Source: Dillenia suffruticosa (Eukaryota > Streptophyta > Magnoliopsida > Dilleniales > Dilleniaceae). Taken from it: a stretch of 64,000 nucleotides of DNA. Position 1 is the stretch's first letter. The number at the start of each line of letters is the position of its first letter. The notes under the pieces were generated by a model. The model had not been told where the DNA came from. It saw only the letters and a program-made list of their open reading frames with translations, and made no database searches. This document shows, in pieces, positions 3,060 through 46,569 of the stretch. The position numbers were made by a program, and so were the translations under genes. The DNA is taken from contig JAVTVX010000017.1 of assembly GCA_033439265.1 (NCBI GenBank), positions 7,462,001-7,526,000 of the forward strand, given 5' to 3'.

Positions 3060-4155
3060 AAGTTCATTTCTACACTCATAATGCTTTGTTTCCTTGTTTA
3101 AGACCCCTAACATTCTCTACATTGTTGGATTATGTATCATATGAAAAGCAGCAAGAATGTCTTCTCGCATATAAAGTAATTTGTCATCTGGGCACAAAAT
3201 ACTTTTGTTGCCCTTGCATTATGGATTAAACAGTTGCATTTCTCTGAAGTGATTTAAAGAAAGAATTGGGTAGTTAGTTTTAATTAGCTGGGATAAGATA
3301 AGGCCTCAGTTGTCATGTACCCTCTCTGGTCATCGCCACAGTTATATATAAGGACTACTGCCTTTCTGCAACCTCTGATGTTCGGGTGGCCTTGCTAACT
3401 GTTGATACTGAATTGATCTGTAGCTCAGCTCATAATTGTCGAGCTGATTAATTGTTGGCCTAATGGTTTCCTGGTTTTGCATTAGCAATAATACATGTCA
3501 TTGTTATTCACCTTGAACTGCAGCAGGAGAACTTCACTTTAGGGGATTTTCTTGTTTTCTAGAAGGTTTTGAATTCTCACAGACTGCAGGTGCTATTGGA
3601 GGGGCTGCTTCTTCTCTCGTTCGTGTACCAACAGACATAGTTGAATATAACTTCATTCTGGGTTCTTTGTCTCTGGCAAAATAAGCTGAATGATTTTGAA
3701 TTTGACATTGCGCAGGTTGTTAAGCAAAGGATGCAAACTGGGCAATTCACAGCAGCTTCTGAAGCTGTTCGCCTAACTGTTGCTAAGGAAGGAGTCAGAG
3801 GCCTTTATGCAGTAAGTGATGTTTTGTTGTCTCAAGCTTTTCCTCAACTTCTGAGTCCACAACGTCCATCAAACTACTTTGTTAGATACTAATTGGAAAA
3901 TCTACTTCTCTGTTTTCTTTTCTTTTTTTTTTTTTTTATCAATTTTATTTTTGAGCGTGCAGGGATATGGATCCTTCTTACTACGGGATCTACCTTTCAA
4001 TGCCATTCAGTTTTGCATCTATGAGCAGCTAAGGATGGGGTATAAGCTAGCTGTGAATTCTTGATATTTCTATTCTCTGTTTGACATGAAAGTCTGAATC
4101 TTTTCTATGAACCCATGGCAGTTCTAGGGGACCAGAGAAGATTCGAATATGGAAC

Positions 4156-4561
4156 TAGGGCTGTTATGCGAATTTAGTCCAATTCAAGTTGCTTGCAAGA
4201 AGTTCGGTCAACGGCTCGATTCAACCCAATTTTGACTGAACTCGAGTTGAGTTTGAGTAGTACAATTTTAGAATAAAAAAGTCATCGAATAATTCAATAA
4301 CATATATTAATATTTATTATACACATACTTATATATAATTATAATATAAATAATTAAATTAAATAAAATATATTAACATATTATATAAAAATCAAGTTTT
4401 CGAGTCAAATTTGAACGATTTCATTATACAATTGAGTTGAGTTCGAGTTTTATTATTACTTCTCGTTGAGTTCGAGTTTAAGTTTGAATTAGGTTAAAAA
4501 ATTCAAGTTTGAGTTCGAACATAGCAATATTTAGGATCGATTTGACTTGAAAACACCCCTA
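4156..4561. mobile_element. hAT-type MITE, 406 bp, perfect 8-bp target duplication
   Basis: The ends are short inverted repeats: the left starts TAGGGCTGTT and the right, reverse-complemented, starts TAGGGGTGTT. They are flanked by an identical 8-bp duplication, TATGGAAC, at 4148-4155 and 4562-4569. An 8-bp duplication with TAGGG-type ends is the hAT signature. The interior is AT-rich with repeated GAGTTCGAGTTTGAGTT-like phrases and no transposase, so it is non-autonomous. It lies where a linking exon of the carrier gene would be expected. Confidence 0.85.
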
Positions 4562-5475
4562 TATGGAACACTGAGAACGAGAACTATCTTTTATCGTTCT
4601 ACCATTTGTCAACAGTATGATTGTTATGCTTGCTTCTTGCTCGTGTGTCTTGGCAATATTGCTGGTCACTGTTACTAGCCTTCATGGGCTATCAATGACT
4701 GTTGTTAATTAAAATGTGGATGCCATTTTGAAAAAGGCAATTGTGATGGATAAATTGATGGAAACACCAATCTGTGTTCATCATATGGTGGCCAGACTGT
4801 AGGGTTTGGTTTACCAAAGGCATGCTTTCTCATGGCAAAAACCCCATAAATGCTACTAGTTCAAGAACTGGCATAAACAACGATACTACGTTTGGAAGAT
4901 GATCATCTTTTAGGCATAGAACCCCATACAGATATTGCTGACATGAAGCACAATGAGAGTGTCGGTAGCTTCTTAACTAGCTCGCAAACCTGCAACTGCG
5001 TGGTAGTCTTCTCAGGCCATACTCATGCATCACTAATGGCTGTGTCCTTAACGCTGAATTTTGTTGATAGGTCTTTGCCTTCTTATGGAGTAACTGTCGA
5101 CTAGCTACACTCTTCTCATTTTCCTACCGTACACTGTTCTCATTTGGTGTGTATATGTCTTGTTTTCTGGTGGTAACTTTTTCCCTTTCTGCACACGTGG
5201 AGGCAATATTATTCTTTGGGACAAATCCAAAGCTCAACTCTCTTTTCAGGTGCAATTACTGGAGGTGTAACTACGCCTTGGGATGTGATGAAGACTAGAC
5301 TAATGGTTCAGGTAGACGTTATTTGTATTTGTCCCTCTTCTTGGACGATTGTTAATTTTAATTTTCCTTTTGATTGTGCCTTTGACTATTTTAGGGCACA
5401 TCAAACCAATATAAAGGTGTGATGGATTGTGTTAGGATGATGGCAAGGGAAGAAGGCACTAATTCTCTTTTCAAG

Positions 5476-6156
5476 GTATGACCATTTTGCACCACATATG
5501 TCCCTCCCTTTCTCCTCTGATGGAAATTTTGCTGAGATATCACTTAAAAGCAACCTGGTCAGACAGATCTGGTTTCTTGTAAGAACCATCCATTGTGATT
5601 CCTAATAATTACGATAAGGAGAGAATTGTAGATTCCAAATGAGTGGAATGGAATTCCGCTGATTTAGATAGAGAAAATTTTAGCATATGCCATGCGTGAA
5701 ATTTAAATTAATAATTAATCTATAGGGCTAATTGTGATCACTGACTATGTTGCCATTTCGGACTGCAATTTCAGTCATCCAAGATTTTTTCTATGATTGG
5801 TTTGTTCTTTGCAACAAGAACGAAATTGGCAGTTTTGTGAACTTATTCATTCGTTGGTCAAAAATTGGATTGGGGAGAGAGAGGGAGAGGGTAGGAGATG
5901 TTACCGCCCGCTGAATTGTTTGAATTGCCACACGCGGTTGCAATTACCGCCGGGGCCAAGATCAATTGGGTGCACCATATACCAGGTGTTGAGTTAGAGA
6001 AGAAGATGCCTAATACTGCAGAAAGCAGCCAGAGAAGAAGATGCAAGTCGACGGACAAAAATGAAATAAGGAAAAGGAAAAGATTAGGTCCGTGGAGAGG
6101 TGATTTCTCTGGCTTGAAGTGGAATTTGAATGTGTCGCTAAGAGACGGAGAGAGAA

Positions 6157-6187
<31 letters not shown>

Positions 6188-6446
6188 GACTAATACTGTT
6201 ATTTTTAAAAACCATCCATCTTAGATAATGATTTTTCAATCACATGTAATAAAAGAAATAATTACTGATTAAACCACTAAAACTGAAAAATAAGTTTGGG
6301 AGGTCTCAAAATTATTATTATTTTTTTTATTTTTGAATACTAAAATTAAGCTTTACTCCAATTGTTATTATTATTATTATAATTATATCCGTTGGCTCCC
6401 AAATATTTATCTTAAGCTCGTTGGCTCTAACCCGTCACTAGATTCT
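5476..6446. other. Gene-free stretch after the carrier remnant
   Basis: I searched this for the missing last exon of the carrier and did not find it. It holds an ATA/TAA trinucleotide run at about 6157-6184 and otherwise unremarkable DNA. Short open frames on both strands show no recognisable protein. Confidence 0.5.
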
Positions 6447-6632
6447 TTTTCCTTTTTTTTTTGTGGATATCACGTGTTGGACACCGTCCGGTATCCAGAG
6501 TTTCGTCTTGACTAATCCGGACTCACTGCTGCAGTGGTTCCTTTCGAAAGACAGTCTCCTAATGGGGAACGCTCTATATACATGAAGACCCGATACTCCC
6601 GACAAGAATCGAACCCCGATTATACTTAAAGG
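6447..6632 (-). mobile_element. SINE, minus orientation
   Basis: The poly-T at the left end is the A-tail of a minus-strand insertion. Reverse-complemented, the right end has a box B-like GGTTCGATTCTTG. A 13-bp imperfect direct repeat (gtcactagattct / gtcattagtttct) at 6434-6446 and 6633-6645 flanks it, with two mismatches, indicating some age. Confidence 0.65.
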
Positions 6633-6674
6633 GTCATTAGTTTCTATAATAGCACTTCAAGTCCACTTAGAAAC

Positions 6675-6857
6675 TTTCATTTTTTATTTGGTTTTTATCG
6701 TTGATATCTTGACTTTATTTGATTAATCCGATTCGAACACTGTGAGATTTATTTTAGGGATGACCTCTCTTAAGTCTTTTTTCACTATTTTTAGAATTTG
6801 AACTTGATATCTCTAATTAAGAGAGTGTGACTAATTATTCAATTCAAAGAAATTTGA
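6675..6857 (-). mobile_element. SINE, minus orientation, same family as 16674 and 49029
   Basis: It shares the phrases AATCCGATTCGAACACTGTGAG, seen here in slightly diverged form, and TTTTTCACTATTTTTAG with the copy at 49029-49193. A TTAGAAAC direct repeat at 6667-6674 and 6858-6865 is a plausible target duplication. Together with 6447-6632 this makes two SINEs almost back to back. Confidence 0.55.
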
Positions 6858-7438
6858 TTAGAAACCTACGTATGTACATCGCAAATTTGATTTCAAATCC
6901 GAAAGTTCAACGGACTTATTAGTTGAGTTAGACTCAACTCATTATTACTTTTATAAAGATATAAATTTTTTCATAAAAATCCTTCACAAGAGGCCTTCTC
7001 TTTCTTAAGATGAAAGGGCAGGAGAGCAGAGTTGATGGGAGGGACCAAGGAGGGAAGTGCAGTTAAAATTTATTAAAAAAATGCAATATGTATATTTATT
7101 AACGTTATTTCAATGAGTACTATTAAAAATATTGTTAACATTTTTTAAAATTTTATTATAATTTTTTGAAAATATTCTTCATTCTGAAAAATAGTAATTT
7201 TTTATTCTTCTTTTTTTATATTCTTTTTCTATTATACTTCATTCTTAATATAAATTTAAAATTTTAATTTTGCTTGGCCAAGGACAAGAGCGAGCTCGTA
7301 TTCTTATTGGCTTAAACCACGGCATTTTCAAGGGGGACAACAATGGATGGACGACTGCGCCGCGTTTCGATCAAGCCATTTCAAAATTTTAATTTAATTT
7401 AATTTAATTTAATATATTTTTTTTAGGGAGTGCGTGGT

Positions 7439-7636
7439 GGGGTCGGAACGACGTCGTCCATTAATTTGATTCCGCTTTGCATGAGCTCTCTCTACATCTG
7501 TTAATGGTACAAAAGCTTTCAAACTTAACACCACATGGTATACAATATTACATTTGACCGACACAACTGCAAACTTTCTTCCGGAAATTGAGCGCCAAAT
7601 GGGGTCGGAACGACGTCGTCCGTCTATTTTGATTCC
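7439..7636. repeat. Direct repeat with a 10-bp palindrome
   Basis: The phrase GGGGTCGGAACGACGTCGTC occurs at about 7440 and again at about 7600, each time followed within 15 bp by TTGATTCC. The core ACGACGTCGT is a perfect 10-bp palindrome containing the ACGT core bound by plant bZIP factors. Whether it is a regulatory pair or an old duplication cannot be told from sequence alone. Confidence 0.6.
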
Positions 7637-37286: not shown

Positions 37287-38068
37287 GAGACATGTACCAA
37301 AATAACAAAAAAAAAAAAATTTTAAATCAACTCCAACTGAAAAATATTTCCTCAAATAACCCAAATTTGTCGGGAGTTGGAGATACGACACACTGTGTTG
37401 CATCTTCAACCCGCGACAACCTAGAGAGAGAAAGAGAAGAGAGAGAGAGAGAGGAGTCCGCGGGGGGAGGGAGAGAGGGGAGGAGAGCGGCGGGGGGTTC
37501 GCCGGGGGGAGGGGGCTGGCGGCGGGCGGCGTATGGCGGAGGGGGGAAGGAGAGAGAGAGGGAGGGCCCCGGGGAGCGGAGGGGGGAGGGAGAGAGAGAG
37601 GGAGGGCCGCGAGGGGGGCGGAGGGGGAAGGAGAGAGAGGGGAGGGGGCTGGCGGCGGGCAGCGGAGGGGGGAAGGACAGAGAGAGGGAGGGCCGCGGGG
37701 GGAGGGAGAGAGAGAGGGAGGGCCGCGGGGGGCGGAGTGGGGAGGAGAGAGACACAACGAGGGTGGAGGGCGGAGGGAGAGAGAGAGAGGGAGGGCCGCG
37801 GGGGACGGAGGGGGGAGGAGAGAGACACAGCGGGGGCGGAGGGGGGAGGAGAGAGACACAGCGGCTCTCCTCCCCCCTCCGCCCCCCGCGGCCCTCCCTC
37901 TCTCTCTCCTTCCCCCCCGTCGCCTGTCGCCAGCCGCCAGCCGCTAGCCCCCCTCCCCTCTCTCTCTCCTTCCCCCCTCCGCCCCCTCACGCGGCCCTCT
38001 CTCTCTCTCCTTCCCCCCTCCGCCGCCCGCCGCCACCTCCTCCCCTCTCTCCCTCCCCCCGCGGACTC

Positions 38069-38126
<58 letters not shown>

Positions 38127-38268
38127 GGGTTGTTGCGGGTTGGAGATGCGACATAGTGTGTCGCGTTTTCAACTCCCGATAAATTTGGGTTATTTGGCGA
38201 AATATTTTTTGGGTGGAGTTGTTTTAAAAAAATTTTTTTTTTTTTTGGTTATTTTGGTACATATCCCC
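37287..38268. mobile_element. GC-rich inverted-repeat (foldback / Mutator-like) element with nested palindromes
   Basis: The terminal inverted repeats are about 150 bp: the left begins GAGACATGTACCAAAATAAC and the right, in reverse complement, GGGGATATGTACCAAAATAAC. They are flanked by TCAATTTC at 37279-37286 and 38269-38276 (8 bp). Each arm contains its own palindrome around CGACACACTGTGT-like cores (about 37376-37412 and the mirror at about 38140-38176). Between the arms, a purine-rich tract (GGAGGG, GAGAGA, GCCGCGGGGGG units, about 37427-37850) mirrors a pyrimidine-rich tract (37861-38126). At the middle, arms of about 20 bp pair across an 11-base loop near 37850-37861. No transposase is present. 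Long ORFs across this block are products of the repeat, not genes. Confidence 0.75.
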
Positions 38269-38438: not shown

Positions 38439-39313
38439 TGTGGGTTTACTTTTTAATATATTTTTATGATTCAATCGCTGTCTAATTTTTGAATTATTCA
38501 ATTCTAACTGTTTTTTAATGATTCCGGTCCAAATATATGTGAACCGTAAATAGACCGGCCTGGGTTTGGCCTTGGTAAAATACTATTTTTAACGCCTCAA
38601 GAAAAGGCATACGCCTCTAATTTTTAAGGATTATTGGGTGGTTTTCTTTTTTTTTTTTTTTTTTTTAATTTTTGTTAAATAATAGTAATATAATTTAAAT
38701 TATGATTTGTTAAATGAGAAAATTATTTGCTTTGCTTAGTCCATAAACTTTGCCCCAATTCACAAATTAGCTCCTGATTCAGAATGTAAGGGTTAGGGAC
38801 CTAAGTTTCATAAATGATAACACAATCCCTCCGATGTCCCGTTAACGGTTAAATGCTGACTTGACTCCGCATGACAGATGACGTGGGAACACAGATCCTG
38901 ACTTAACTTCCAACCGAGCAAAAATCGTTGGTGCGTCACGCAACAGGGCAGCTCCATGCACCAACACGTCAGCACTATGCTGACGTGGCATGACACGTCA
39001 ACATTGGTCTCCTCTCTCGCTGGAAAAACACCCCTTTCTCTCTTCTCTCTTTCTCGGATTAAAACCCATTCTCACGTTAATGTCCAAACACATAATCAAT
39101 TACAACGAAAGCCCAAACTCACACAAGTCAAGCCTAAGGAAGAGAGAAGAACAGGTTTAAGCAATCAAACACAACGGAGGCTTGTTTGTGCGTCCATGGA
39201 AGAGCAGAGCAGAGACAATTGAAGAGTGAAGACCTTAGAAATCTGAAGGAATTGGAAATAGCTGTTGCAAGAATCAAATCAAAGAGAACTTTATTTGTCG
39301 GAACTTTCTGGGT

Positions 39314-39544
39314 TAGACAACCGGTGGCTTTGTGAGCTTTGAGCTGAAGAACCCATGTGAGTTGTTTGGAGTTTTTGTTTCTGCCTTTGTCTCTTGGTGT
39401 TAGATTTTGTGAACCAAGAAGCAAATCTTCTTCTGAAGGAGATTCGAGTTCAACCATGGAGTAATTGGGGTTTTCAATCTTGACAAAAACTGGTGTGCCT
39501 TTGTGGGTGTCTTTAGACCACCATTCAAATGATGGCGGTGACAT
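39314..39544 (-). pseudogene. Captured 5' end of a CSLC-type xyloglucan glucan synthase gene
   Basis: From an ATG at 39544 the minus strand reads about 77 codons resembling the N-terminus of CSLC proteins (CSLC5/8/12 group): [20 protein letters not shown], then [20 protein letters not shown] and NAKQLTWVLLLKAH-like [24 protein letters not shown] enzymes make the beta-1,4-glucan backbone of xyloglucan in the Golgi, but the glycosyltransferase domain and membrane segments are absent here. The similarity stops at the junction with the element's inner terminal repeat near 39314, after which the frame runs into transposon sequence. No stop interrupts the captured codons. About 700 bp upstream (to 40242) may be the donor gene's 5' leader and promoter. 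Confidence 0.75.
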
Positions 39545-40709
39545 TTTGGAGATCTTTCAGAGAAGATCCCAGACGCCGAAATCGGATCTTAAGGATGACC
39601 CTTTTGGATTTAGGGCTTGGATATGTTCAATGAGGGAAGAAATTTCATGAAATTTGAAAAAACCCAGTCGGAGAAATTCGATTTAGGGCTGGCGCTTAAA
39701 CGGGATTTGTTTAATGTGATGAGAGATATTTCATGGAAGTTGGGATTTTGATCTCATTGAGAGACAAGCTCAAAGGGGTTTCTGAAGAGAGAGAGAAGCA
39801 AACACCCCCCTAAGAAAAAGTTATGAGAGAGACTCGTGGAGGATGAAGAAAAAGACGATCAAGACGTCTCTATTTCATGGCGACATTAATGTGCAGAAGA
39901 GATTCAATGGGATTGTGGAGAGAGAGAGAGAAAGAAAGAGAGAGGATAGAGAGAAACGGGTTTAAAGAGAGAGAGAGAGAGGAAACAGCTCACACGTCTA
40001 TGATTTTGATTTAAAAAAAAAAATCATAATAATAATAATATTAATGGTAGTAGTTAAAACACAAAAAGGATTCAAAACAAATAGACAGCAGGCTCTACGT
40101 CAATATCATCACTGACCCCTTCCAGAATCATATCCCTCCTTTTTCATTATTATCACACCCTTCAAACGTTGATCATGAACCTTCATTTCATATGTAGAAA
40201 TTTAAGATCAAAAACACAAAAAAAATCTAAATTTTGGGTCGAAACCCAGAAAGTTTCGACAAATAAAGTTCTCACGGTCGAGAGAGAGAGAGAAAGAGAA
40301 GAGGTTTTTTTTTTCCAGTGACAGAGGAGAGGAGAGAGAGGGGGAGTGGAGGGGAGAGAGAGAGGAGTGCTTTTTTTTTTCAGCGAGAGAGTAGAGGAGA
40401 GAGAGAAAGGGGGGGCGGGGGGAAGGGGAGGGGAGGGAGGGACAGCGGGGGCCGGGGGAGAGAGAGAGAGGAGTGCAACTGATTTGGGGGAAGAGCGTGT
40501 GTGCATTGGGTACATGGCGATGCCACGTTAGTAATAGTGATGATGTGGTAATAATGTGCGTGCGTTGTGCTGACATGTCACTTCACATATCAACAATTCT
40601 TGTCAAATTAAAAATCAACTTAGAAATCTGTATCACCATATCATCTGTTATGTGAAGGCAAATCAGCATTTAACGGTTACAATAACATGGTTACTAATAA
40701 AGGAATCGA

Positions 40710-41184
40710 TAGAAACGTGGCCGGGTCGGTTTGGGCCCAAAAATCTGCCCAACTGATCCAGAAAAAGCTCGGCCCCGTGAACCGGATAGGAGCTATAGTA
40801 ACCCGGCTTATCCGAACTGGGTACTGTAACAGTCTGAGCTGGTTCAATAGATTTTGGGACCAGGAATCGACCCGGAATCGGCCTGGGCACAGAACCGGCC
40901 CGGCCTGGCCAGTTCCAACGGCTCCTTGTCCTTTTTTTTAAAATTTTTTTCAATTTTACCTCTCCTTGTCCCTTCTTTTCGGGCCAAACTGGTCTGACCT
41001 TATGTGAACTGACCAGTCGGTTCCGGTTCAGCAGATCGGGCCAGTTCAACTAAAAATAATTTTGGAACTGGCTCGGCCCGGCCCGGTCCCGGACTGGCCT
41101 AGGAACCGTAGTCAGCCCGACCCGTGATTTCGGGAACCATCATTGAACGGGATCAGATTGGGTCCGACCCGGTTACAACTTTTA
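40710..41184. mobile_element. hAT-type MITE nested in the Pack-MULE right arm
   Basis: 475 bp flanked by an identical 8-bp duplication, GGAATCGA, at 40702-40709 and 41185-41192. The ends are TAGAAACGTGGCCGGGTCGG and, reverse-complemented, TAAAAGTTGTAACCGGGTCGG-like. The interior is rich in GGCCCGG / CCGGGCC phrases. No coding capacity. Confidence 0.8.
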
Positions 41185-41292
41185 GGAATCGATTTGTTAT
41201 CATTTATAAAATTTAAATTTTCAGTATTCTAAAATTTAAAAATTAATTTATGAATTGGGATAAAATTTAGAAATTAGACGAGTAATTTCCTC

Positions 41293-44200
41293 TTGGTTCA
41301 ACATCGTTGCTCTGATTTTGGGAGGCAATAGACAAAGAAGGACTTTCCTACTTGACAAGTAACAGACAGCAGCCATCGAGACAGAAAATTTTGGAATAAA
41401 ACGTACCCTTTCCCGCACAGCGTGGGCGCTATGTCCACAATTCAAATTAACTCTTCTTCCTAACTGTTGGAGTTGTTGCCCATTTACTCGTGTGCAGCTG
41501 ACGTACTAAACACCTTGTCACCGTCAGTTCTCTGAACACTCCCACTCTGTAAAAACAAATGGCATCTACCCTACCCCAATAACCACACTAGATTTTGGTT
41601 TTAATCTCTGTAAAGTCAGATCAATCAGTTCAAACAAATCCCACTTGTCGAGTGCGATACTATTCAAAGTGTTGTGCAGGTTAATTAATTTTTTATTCTA
41701 TTTATAATATTTCAAATTAAAATAATTTTTTATAATAAATATTGAACTATATGAATAAAAGCCTTTTTATTTTTTTATTTTTACACAGGAAAGTGCGTCT
41801 TGTGTTGTGTTCTTTGACTAAAAGTTAGCTAGAGAGAGAATAAGCAAATAGCATTTCTTAAACCGGGAAGAGGGTGACCCTCCTCAAACGAGTTTGCACT
41901 GAATGTATATTTTCAAAAAATCATTAATTACATGCAACGACCATGGAGGATATGACGGACCCGACAATTGTGACTCGATTCTTCACGTTATAATCGAGCA
42001 CCGTTTTCTTCCCGACCAGAATAAATGTGCTCTACAGTTGTTTTCGAACACGACAACCTTTTCTTTTCTAACTTTAAATTTCATTATTTTAATTTATCAA
42101 TTCAATGCATAAACAAACTTAATTTTTTTAAAAGAAAATTAAAAGAATTATCTAGAGGCAGGAAATATGTGGGAAAAATTTGATGCCAAACTGTGAACTC
42201 ACAAGAAAGCAAAAGGATAATTAATTAATATCTATTTACTGAATAATTAGAATGATATTATTTGATATTCAAAAAAATAATTTAGTGATCATAATTTTTC
42301 TTTAGAAGATTTCATGTTAAAATTTTTGTGTAATAAAAAAATTAACATTAATCGAAACAACGTGACACAGAACAAGTGTCAATATGGGCGTGAGATTGGT
42401 TGGGCTCATTCATGAGGAAAACTAGAAAATCGGTGATCAACAAGACCCACGAGCAGACCAAGAAAAAAGAGGGTATTTTGCTGTGTTATTTGTCATCAAA
42501 TGTAACCGTGCAGTGGCCAAATTACGTACCAAGTACAGCTGGTTTTGTTACTGGTTTTATGGCAGCAGCTTGACCCATTAATATGTCATGTTAGGTTTTA
42601 GCGAATGGTGCATCCACCCGGTGATGACCCATACGGATAAGTACAGCAGAATGGTATTCGGTTAAAGAACATAAAATTCAATAATCTAGTAAAATTCATA
42701 TCAATTATTTGAATTAATAAATAAAAGCGAAAGTTTAAAAACAAAATCCTAAAATATGTATTTGTAAAATTTAAGTAAAAATATGGATTTTGTCAGAATT
42801 CACATTAAGCTTTTGATTTTGATTTCAATTCTGGTTTTCGAATGCAAATCAAAGTTTTCGTGTCTTAAAAGGTTTGGTGCATCATTCATGTGACGCTTAA
42901 CCCCTTTAAAGCTACCCAAATCTATAAAACCAAAATTCGGTTCTCAAACTTTTTGTGGGTTGGCAGGATATGTATGAATATATGGTTGATAAACGTGTAA
43001 GGTTTGCTGCCAATTTATTTACCCTTTTAATTGCTCGGCTTTTTGCTTGAGTCATTGGCTGCGCAATATGCTCCCGCTTGAGTTGTAAAGGTATTTTTAA
43101 TAGTTTCTTCGAATAGAAGAATTTGAGACTTGTAGAGAACGCAATTGTTGTTTAAGAGGAGTGAAATTGTTGAGATTTGCTGCGAATGTGGATATAGGTG
43201 TTTGACAAGGGGGTAGCAATTGGCTTTAATCATAGGCTCTTACCTCACAAAAGCTATTGTGATCTTTTCGAATTCAAGGATGATTCAGAAACTCATGACG
43301 AATGGTTTGGAAAATCTTATTTTCTCTCGACTAGTTATTTCAAGAAAATTTTATGTAATAAATTTAGACTTTTTTCAAAAAATAATAAAATCTCTTTACA
43401 AAACATTGACTTAAATTACGCTTTCATTAATAATATTTGTATTGAAAAACTTATTTAATTTAAACTGAGTTTGTTAGCACCCCAGGGTTTTAGTACTTGC
43501 TGATTGGATAGCCAACACACATATATATATATATATCTTTTTATCCCTAAGAATCATTGAGAAAAAGTCGAGATTTAAGGGAGCAATCTGTTCACCAATT
43601 TGTTTTCAGAAGTATCCCTACAGATGAAGACAAAGGTCCATGATCAAGACTCTCTCCCACCTACCAACATATCTTTTTCAGTCTTTTTTCCCAGCAATTT
43701 CCTTTTAATCATTTATTCCGTTTCCTTCCATTACGTCTGTCTCTTAGTTTTTCTTTATTTATCAATATTTTTCTTCTAAGCCTTCTGTCTGAATTTCTTG
43801 GAGCAAGTATCAATTGTAATCTTTTGTCAAGGAGATCTTATATTTATACTCTTCCTCTTATCATCACCATAATAAAATCTATATATATATATATATTTTC
43901 TATTTCATCAATATTCATCTCAGAGACCTATGGAGGAGTCTGAAAACCCATCATCGTCAAACACAATCCCTCTATTGCCTGAACCAAAGATAATCACTAG
44001 ATTCCATTTATGTTGATTTTCACTAAAATTTGCTGATACAATCAGTTAATTCGAAAATTGGTGAACGGAATCTAAACCTTAATTTGCTCACTTAGGTTGT
44101 TAAATGGTTTAGTAATATCAAAATTATAAGTAGTTGCATAGGAAAAAAATTGTATGACAACAATTTATTAAATGAAGATGAGAGCCGGAGATACCTGTGG

Positions 44201-45068: not shown

Positions 45069-45159
45069 CCATTCTCCACCCCCCGTGAACTCAAATTGCA
45101 CAAAACAATCTCCACATTGAGAACCTCTTTCTCTCTCTCAAGAGCAAATTCCAAAAACC

Positions 45160-46569
45160 ATGAGGTCACTGACAAAAATAAAGCTCCTTCAACTAACAAT
45201 AGCAATATTCCTAATCCTCATACTCGTTCTCCACACACTCTACTCCCATCTCCTCCGCCACTTGATCCTCATCAACCCCACAATTTCTGTCTCTCTTCTC
45301 TCCCTCACCCTTCTCTCTCTTCTTTACTACCTCTCCAACCGCCCCAACCCCGTCTTCCTTCTCAACTACTCCTGCTACAGACCCACCCCGGACCGCAAAT
45401 GCAGCTTCGAAGTCTCCGAATACTTCGTCTACAAAACCCAGAAATTCTCCCCAAAATCCATCGACTTCATGCGTGGAATCTACCTCAAATCCGGCCTAGG
45501 CAATGAAACCTACTTACCCCCTTTCATTTTCGAGACAGGTGATCATAACGCTAAGCTTTGCTCAGCTATTCAAGAGGCAGAGGAAGGCATGTTCACATCA
45601 GTAGATTCTCTTTTGAGAAAAACCCAAATCCACCCTTCGAAAATCGACATGGTTGTTGTCACTTGCGGAAACTTCTCAGCAACTCCTTCACTTTCCTCTC
45701 TCCTTGTCAATCACTATAAGCTTAAATCGGACGTGAAGACCTATAATCTAAGCGGAATGGGGTGCAGTTCCGGCGTGATATCAATTGACCTGGTGCATAA
45801 CATTCTCCGAAAGTCCAAGAAAATCCAATATGCATTAATTGTCGTCACCGAAAACATCAGCCTCAACTGGTATTTCGGAGACGACCGTTCCATGCTCGTC
45901 ACCAACTGCATTTTTCGCGTAGGTTGTGCCGCCGCAATTCTAACCAACGACCCAAGTTGTTCCCCACATGCGAAAATGCAACTCTTGCACACCCTCCGCA
46001 CCCACCACGGCGCCGATGATTCAGCATACCGTGCTGCCATGCAAGAAGAAGACATCAACAACAACGTTGGAGTATCCCTTACCAAGGATTTGATTCGTGT
46101 TGCCGGCGTGAATTTACACGAACATATCCGCATATTGGCTCCTAGAGTTCTCCCACTAAGTCAGCTCGTCAGTTATGCCTATTCCATGGTGATGTCGGCG
46201 GTGATGACGGTGGGGAAGCCGGTGGTGCCAGACTTCATGATGGCGTTTGAGCACTTGTGTATTCATACAGGAGGGAAAGCAGTGATAGAGGCAGTAGGGG
46301 GAGTTTTGAGGTTAAGTGATGAGGTGACTGAACCGGCTAGGATGAGTTTGCACCGGTTTGGGAATACTTCTAGTAGTCTCGTGTTTTATGAGTTGGCTTA
46401 TTTTGAAGCGAAGAATAGAGTTAAGAGGAATGATAGGATGTGGATGCTTGCTTTTGGAACCGGGTTTAAAGTTGGGAGTTCGGTGTGGAAATTTTTGGGT
46501 GATTCCAGTTATGAGAGTGATAATCCTTGGAATGATTGCATCCACAGGTACCCTTTGAAGGCTTGGTGA
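45160..46569 (+). CDS. 3-ketoacyl-CoA synthase, intronless, 469 aa
   Basis: The condensing enzyme of the ER very-long-chain fatty acid elongase, joining malonyl-CoA to an acyl-CoA for waxes, suberin or sphingolipids. The N-terminus has two hydrophobic segments (about residues 9-30 and 36-58) as in KCS proteins. A FAE1/type III synthase domain follows from NYSCYRP. Active-site Cys202 sits in LSGMGCSSG. The family histidines are seen in EHLCIH (365, 369) and LHRFGN (His398), with Asn402 completing the triad. One exon of normal length, as is common in the family. The ATG gives the expected membrane N-terminus. It looks like one of the smaller, less studied KCS clades, but I cannot assign the member. 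Base composition shifts sharply from C/T-rich in the 5' two thirds to G-rich after about 46190. Confidence 0.94.
   Translation: MRSLTKIKLLQLTIAIFLILILVLHTLYSHLLRHLILINPTISVSLLSLTLLSLLYYLSNRPNPVFLLNYSCYRPTPDRKCSFEVSEYFVYKTQKFSPKSIDFMRGIYLKSGLGNETYLPPFIFETGDHNAKLCSAIQEAEEGMFTSVDSLLRKTQIHPSKIDMVVVTCGNFSATPSLSSLLVNHYKLKSDVKTYNLSGMGCSSGVISIDLVHNILRKSKKIQYALIVVTENISLNWYFGDDRSMLVTNCIFRVGCAAAILTNDPSCSPHAKMQLLHTLRTHHGADDSAYRAAMQEEDINNNVGVSLTKDLIRVAGVNLHEHIRILAPRVLPLSQLVSYAYSMVMSAVMTVGKPVVPDFMMAFEHLCIHTGGKAVIEAVGGVLRLSDEVTEPARMSLHRFGNTSSSLVFYELAYFEAKNRVKRNDRMWMLAFGTGFKVGSSVWKFLGDSSYESDNPWNDCIHRYPLKAW

Follow-up and report, generated by a model that had tools for sequence, protein, structure and literature searches.

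The element at positions 38716-41292 of the window, i.e., the whole 64,000-nucleotide stretch of Dillenia suffruticosa DNA that was analysed (C17:7462001-7526000 in a searched genome of 596 Mb and 37 contigs), is very probably an old Pack-MULE that carries the 5' end of a CSLC-type gene. The insert was copied from that gene at the DNA level with its promoter included, and, as an additional Pack-MULE, the element has one feature of wider use, which is a fold-back-like joint at which the far end of the captured sequence stands inverted beside its near end. An earlier reading that was made from the letters alone (the sequence-only reading) had proposed a Pack-MULE-like element with the start of such a gene; this was borne out by two candidate donors in the genome, whose similarity to the insert stops at its edges. 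The name CSLC is the call of that reading together with N-terminal features, and it is used here as an assumption. The features of the element are as follows (strand in brackets where assigned).

38706-38715: left candidate 10-bp target-site duplication (TSD), TTTGTTAAAT, 7/10 against the right one as counted by eye
38716-41292: whole element, with the ends GAGAAAATTA (left) and GAGGAAATTA (right, read inward), based on the arm alignment and similar ends elsewhere
38716-39055 (+): left terminal inverted repeat, based on the arm alignments
39056-39283 (+): segment X, 228 bp, common to the related element L022 (212/228) and a locus on C1 (202/227)
39134-39544 (-): chimeric open frame of 136 codons that begins at the CSLC-type ATG and extends into segment X
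39284-39291: filler of 8 nt, GAGAACTT, non-donor, with its inverted repeat at 40266-40273
39292-39314 (-): inverted copy of the far end of the captured promoter (40243-40265), the final GGTT (4 bp) of which is shared with the beginning of the insert
39311-40265 (-): captured start of the CSLC-type gene, made up of 78 codons (39311-39544) preceded by about 720 bp of upstream sequence
40266-40273: AAGTTCTC, those bases of the right junction block that do not come from the donor
40280-41292 (-): right terminal inverted repeat, its inner part purine-rich, interrupted by a nested insertion
40711-41183: nested insertion of 473 bp in the right arm, with AGGAATCGAT on both sides (40701-40710 and 41184-41193)
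41293-41302: right candidate 10-bp TSD, TTGGTTCAAC, 7/10 against the left one as counted by eye

Extent, arms and surroundings

Dispersed copies in the genome have ends that resemble those of the window element, and the copy in L058 stops at the same point as the window element does at 41292. A local alignment of 38708-39055 with the reverse complement of 40458-41303, from which 40710-41192 had been removed, scored 182.5, compared with a maximum of 71 and a mean of 46.3 in 200 dinucleotide shuffles, while the left arm up to 39000 alone scored 166 (maximum of 59 in 200 shuffles). The removal of 40710-41192 follows the suggestion of the sequence-only reading. When 38717-39055 was aligned globally to the right arm (from 40294 outward), the two agreed at 228 of 317 aligned bases (72%), and there were 221 gap columns. 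The arms, which are about 340 bp and longer, are real but divergent and of unequal length. The earlier claim of inverted arms of several hundred bases was correct in this respect, but the part at 39056-39283, which it had counted as arm, is a separate segment. According to excerpts of PMC3310237, MULEs have TSDs of 9-11 bp and arms that are typically 100-500 bp long, and an arm identity of 80% was the cut-off for a tomato library; the window arms, with their 228/317, fall under that value.

The probability of a match of at least 7/10 at one fixed place is 0.0065, or about 0.02 with a choice of three lengths. A scan for close target-site duplications returned 26 candidates, none of which lay at the ends of the window element, and its own TSD is decayed at best. 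The 10-bp direct repeat AGGAATCGAT around 40711-41183 is the pattern expected of a nested insertion; this inserted stretch is rich in CCGGGTCGG-type motifs. The longest ATG frame within 38716-41292 has 136 codons.

Directly left of the element, there is a GA/CT-rich inverted repeat (37289-37705 and 37879-38265) with arms of about 400 bp that are 76% alike, and long purine/pyrimidine frames overlie it. On the other side, the right flank in the window is collinear with C20:8065179-8071939. It includes a long open frame at 45121-46569, presumably that of a 3-ketoacyl-CoA synthase, which has a collinear duplicate at C20:8070082-8071939 (90%). In the 800 bp of C20 opposite the element that were tested, no match to the element was found. 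An exact empty site in this duplicate region was considered and dropped because the flanks are too diverged for the target to be placed. Another end of the family lies in the same region (L058, 3125-3420), about 2.4 kb off.

The captured CSLC-type piece

The insert covers the donor's promoter and leader as well as its first 78 codons, with the ATG at 39544 on the minus strand. A genome search with 39300-40250 gave 49 rows, which comprised the window itself, four long pieces, which fall in two loci (C20:5331091-5332171 and C17:4759603-4760649), together with 44 short matches, all of the latter inside query bases 599-689, a purine-rich stretch. No long match beyond the window and these two loci and no second copy bearing the CSLC insert were found in this search. 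The search for a donor that the sequence-only reading had called for thus led to the C20 and C17 loci, which are collinear with each other across 5 kb at 87%. Two of the four donor frames that were scanned contain the GT2 domains PF00535 and PF13632, and the C20 locus encodes a GT2 enzyme. Against both donor genes, the CSLC similarity ends at both edges of the insert, 39311 and 40265. On the minus strand it starts at 39311 and does not pass through the junction, as had been claimed when the codons were said to stop at the inner edge.

The insert as a whole shows an identity of 90.0% with C20 and of 87.5% with C17; the values are 88.1% and 85.3%, respectively, in the upstream part and 95.7% and 94.0% in the codons. 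The insert also differs from the donors by a deletion of some 140 bases and by smaller indels. Of the sites that distinguish the two donors, 54 have the C20 base in the insert, 28 have the C17 base and 6 have neither. Moreover, the joint sequence in C20 is AACCCAG, which is the same as in the insert, while it is AATTTAA in C17. Judging by these sequences, C20 is favoured as the closer donor, although this is not proof because the comparison is without an outgroup.

The sequence-only reading had noted that an ATG, an open frame and perhaps the promoter of the donor were retained. The ATG and the open frame were confirmed, the insert reaches about 720 bp further upstream than the ATG, and the frame of 136 codons runs past the captured part. 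It had further suggested that a chimeric or antisense transcript might be made. Since the promoter region in the insert has the same orientation as the captured codons, a transcript that started there would be sense and chimeric, not antisense. It is conceivable from the sequence that the captured piece acts now, either through the chimeric 136-codon transcript or through small RNA against the donor gene, and the capture of the upstream region together with an open frame fits this idea, as does the mention of captured sequences in maize as siRNA reservoirs against donor genes in excerpts of a 2026 review (PMC13317346). The codon changes speak against it, and we regard it as quite improbable. 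The nine private codon changes of the insert are spread 3, 3 and 3 across the codon positions, and eight are replacements and one is silent, compared with 6.9 replacements expected without constraint; at least eight replacements out of nine were obtained in 34% of the simulations. Between the C20 and C17 donors, there are five silent changes and two replacements. In addition, a frame with nine random changes was still open in 64% of the simulations. The changes in the captured codons look neutral, with no trace of selection on a protein, and the element looks like a neutral relic. A gene function for the captured piece was considered and found to be unsupported, the private codon changes looking neutral.

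Segment X and related elements

Segment X is without a counterpart in the right arm of the window element, and its origin differs from that of the arm. A genome search with 38700-39320 gave 11 rows, of which the best outside the window was L022, an element on C8. Its arms (4129-4490 and 7047-7442) are 73% identical, its ends are GGGATAATTA and GGAATAATTTA, and its TSD is perfect, with TATGTATTAT on both sides (10/10). L022 matches window positions 39008-39288, i.e., the inner left arm and segment X. Between the outer arms of L022 and those of the window element, there was no BLAST match, the end motif alone being alike; the outer arms of the window element match other dispersed copies at 71-83%. 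The second further copy of segment X, at C1:7689691-7689917, has no arms that could be seen, and this locus, L023, was matched to no identified gene. L022 and the C1 copy remain alike for about 190 bp past the point at which the window stops.

L022 carries a piece of another gene at 5420-6692 (1.27 kb), which encodes a coiled coil and which is putatively CRWN/NMCP1-like. Pfam returned no family for the three L022 frames that were submitted. Its identity is 92.8% with C24 and 85.6% with C26, which are 84.1% identical to each other, and a locus on C35 has the right junction of L022 as well. It seems that segment X entered one lineage first and that two of its branches later took up different gene pieces, and the window element and L022 together suggest successive captures in one lineage. 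The private changes in segment X number 7 in the window, 8 in L022 and 17 in the C1 copy. With 57 private changes at the 942 sites that could be aligned with C20, the insert is somewhat higher than segment X with its 7 of about 228. This order is not the one expected if the capture had followed the split from L022, and rate differences or the gappy alignment of the promoter are the only explanations that we can offer for the excess.

The family is larger than these loci. Searches with the inner right arm and with the L022 end gave at least 49 and at least 40 rows, respectively, both including the query's own places and several rows that are adjacent to one another. Among eight further family sites, three (L040, L044 and L047) have separated inverted arms. 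The MULE domain (PF10551) was matched by 150 of the 150 frames scored, out of 737 candidates in the genome, and none of them was tied to the window arms. MULE-domain frames of 870 residues with an identical 63-bit score turn up at numerous places on many contigs, which looks like the recent spread of a transposase family.

The classification rests on these comparisons. The window element shares with the Pack-MULEs of rice, tomato, Arabidopsis and maize its apparently non-autonomous Mutator-like structure, long inverted arms and a gene fragment acquired at the DNA level, as well as, in the relative L022, a 10-bp TSD. It differs from them in arms of 72% identity, a TSD of its own that is decayed, the presence of two foreign segments one after the other (X, then CSLC) and the fold-back-like joint. 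Its own TSD of 7/10, the divergent arms, the unlinked transposase and the L022 outer arms without a BLAST match count against the assignment. The lack of a firm TSD and the strong divergence of the arms would also suit a segmental duplication in which the CSLC 5' end landed by chance between diverged inverted repeats, with no capture by a transposon. We consider this highly unlikely, since the insert borders on element sequence at both of its edges and since segment X and the inner arm are found again in L022, there with another gene piece and a perfect TSD. The same two observations argue for a Pack-MULE, as do the MULE domains in the genome and the lack of a match to the element in the tested 800 bp of C20. 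An argument that the divergence of the arms proves capture by an already dead element was dropped because L022 combines a perfect TSD with equally divergent arms. No mention of the window element appears in the titles and abstract openings among the literature matches listed.

Junctions and proposed route of capture

At the two inner edges of the element, a block of 31 bp (39284-39314) faces its inverted counterpart (40243-40273), and the two are complementary at 30 of 31 positions. The sequence-only reading had correctly described a block that recurs in inverted form at the other edge, but had assigned it to the terminal repeat, while 23 of its 31 bp are donor sequence. At the right junction, the donor sequence ends in ...GACAAATA and is followed by AAGTTCTC, ACGGTC and the purine-rich arm. 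At the left junction, the arm is followed by segment X up to ...TCAAAGA, by GAGAACTT and by TATTTGTCGGAACTTTCTGGGTT, which leads into the first exon at the common GGTT; TATTTGTCGGAACTTTCTGGGTT is the right end of the donor sequence, inverted. This inverted piece beside the first exon is absent in both donors, C20 and C17. The score of the left flank with the inverted donor end was 37, and no more than 17 was reached with any of 500 other slices taken from the insert. A 17-letter pattern for the source of the filler, with up to three changes allowed, was found in no other examined locus save the window copies.

Reading a path from these joints, we infer that the capture would have taken place by repair synthesis within an element that already carried segment X. 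A new strand, starting at the right arm, would have copied the promoter and then the first exon; at AACC, it would have folded back onto its own start via the 4-bp overlap, and about 31 bp of the right junction would then have been copied backwards, before the strand switched, with an overlap of about 2 bp, to segment X and the left arm. Unconstrained decay and the nested insertion would have come afterwards. Template switching with one fold-back would be the simplest path to this joint, and we give it an even chance of being correct. The main rival is that the inverted 31 bp are an extension of the terminal repeat, with conversion of the arms running past the right arm into the captured sequence and no fold-back. 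Excerpts of PMC3310237 do mention acquired sequence in the extended TIRs of Pack-MULEs, in which, as here, an acquired part is inverted at both inner edges. In the window element, however, segment X separates the arm from the block on the left and is missing from the right arm, and the block is, therefore, not contiguous with the left arm; 228 bp of another origin lie between the inverted part and the arm on that side. Moreover, the arms are only 72% identical, whereas the block matches at 30/31. An extension by conversion is weakened by the presence of segment X on one side only, and we think it possible but rather doubtful.

The fold-back path can be set beside previous proposals. The mechanism of acquisition by MULEs is called yet to be understood in excerpts of PMC3310237, and the 2026 review (PMC13317346) discusses capture in plants and leaves room for an undiscovered mechanism. 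For the Pack-TIRs of animals, gap filling or fork stalling and template switching (FoSTeST) were proposed, with plants left open, according to excerpts of PMC8277862. The window element resembles those Pack-TIRs in that template switching is the proposed route and that the overlaps at its breakpoints are short, but it is a plant MULE and has the inverted far end of the donor at the near junction. MULEs may be able to capture genes by fold-back repair synthesis that leaves the far end of the donor inverted at the near junction, a proposition for and against which we would lean equally. If it is true, the inverted far end would be a concrete signature of replication-based capture for which all Pack-MULEs could be scanned.

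In the L022 capture, the best match to the inverted donor is a 9-bp purine repeat with a score of 18, a value obtained without a slice control for L022 (the maximum of the window control was 17). Because this capture is without an inverted donor end beyond the 9-bp purine match, the fold-back trace is present in one of the two captures examined. In the window element, the joints remain readable throughout, i.e., arm, segment X, inverted donor end, 4-bp overlap, donor and arm.
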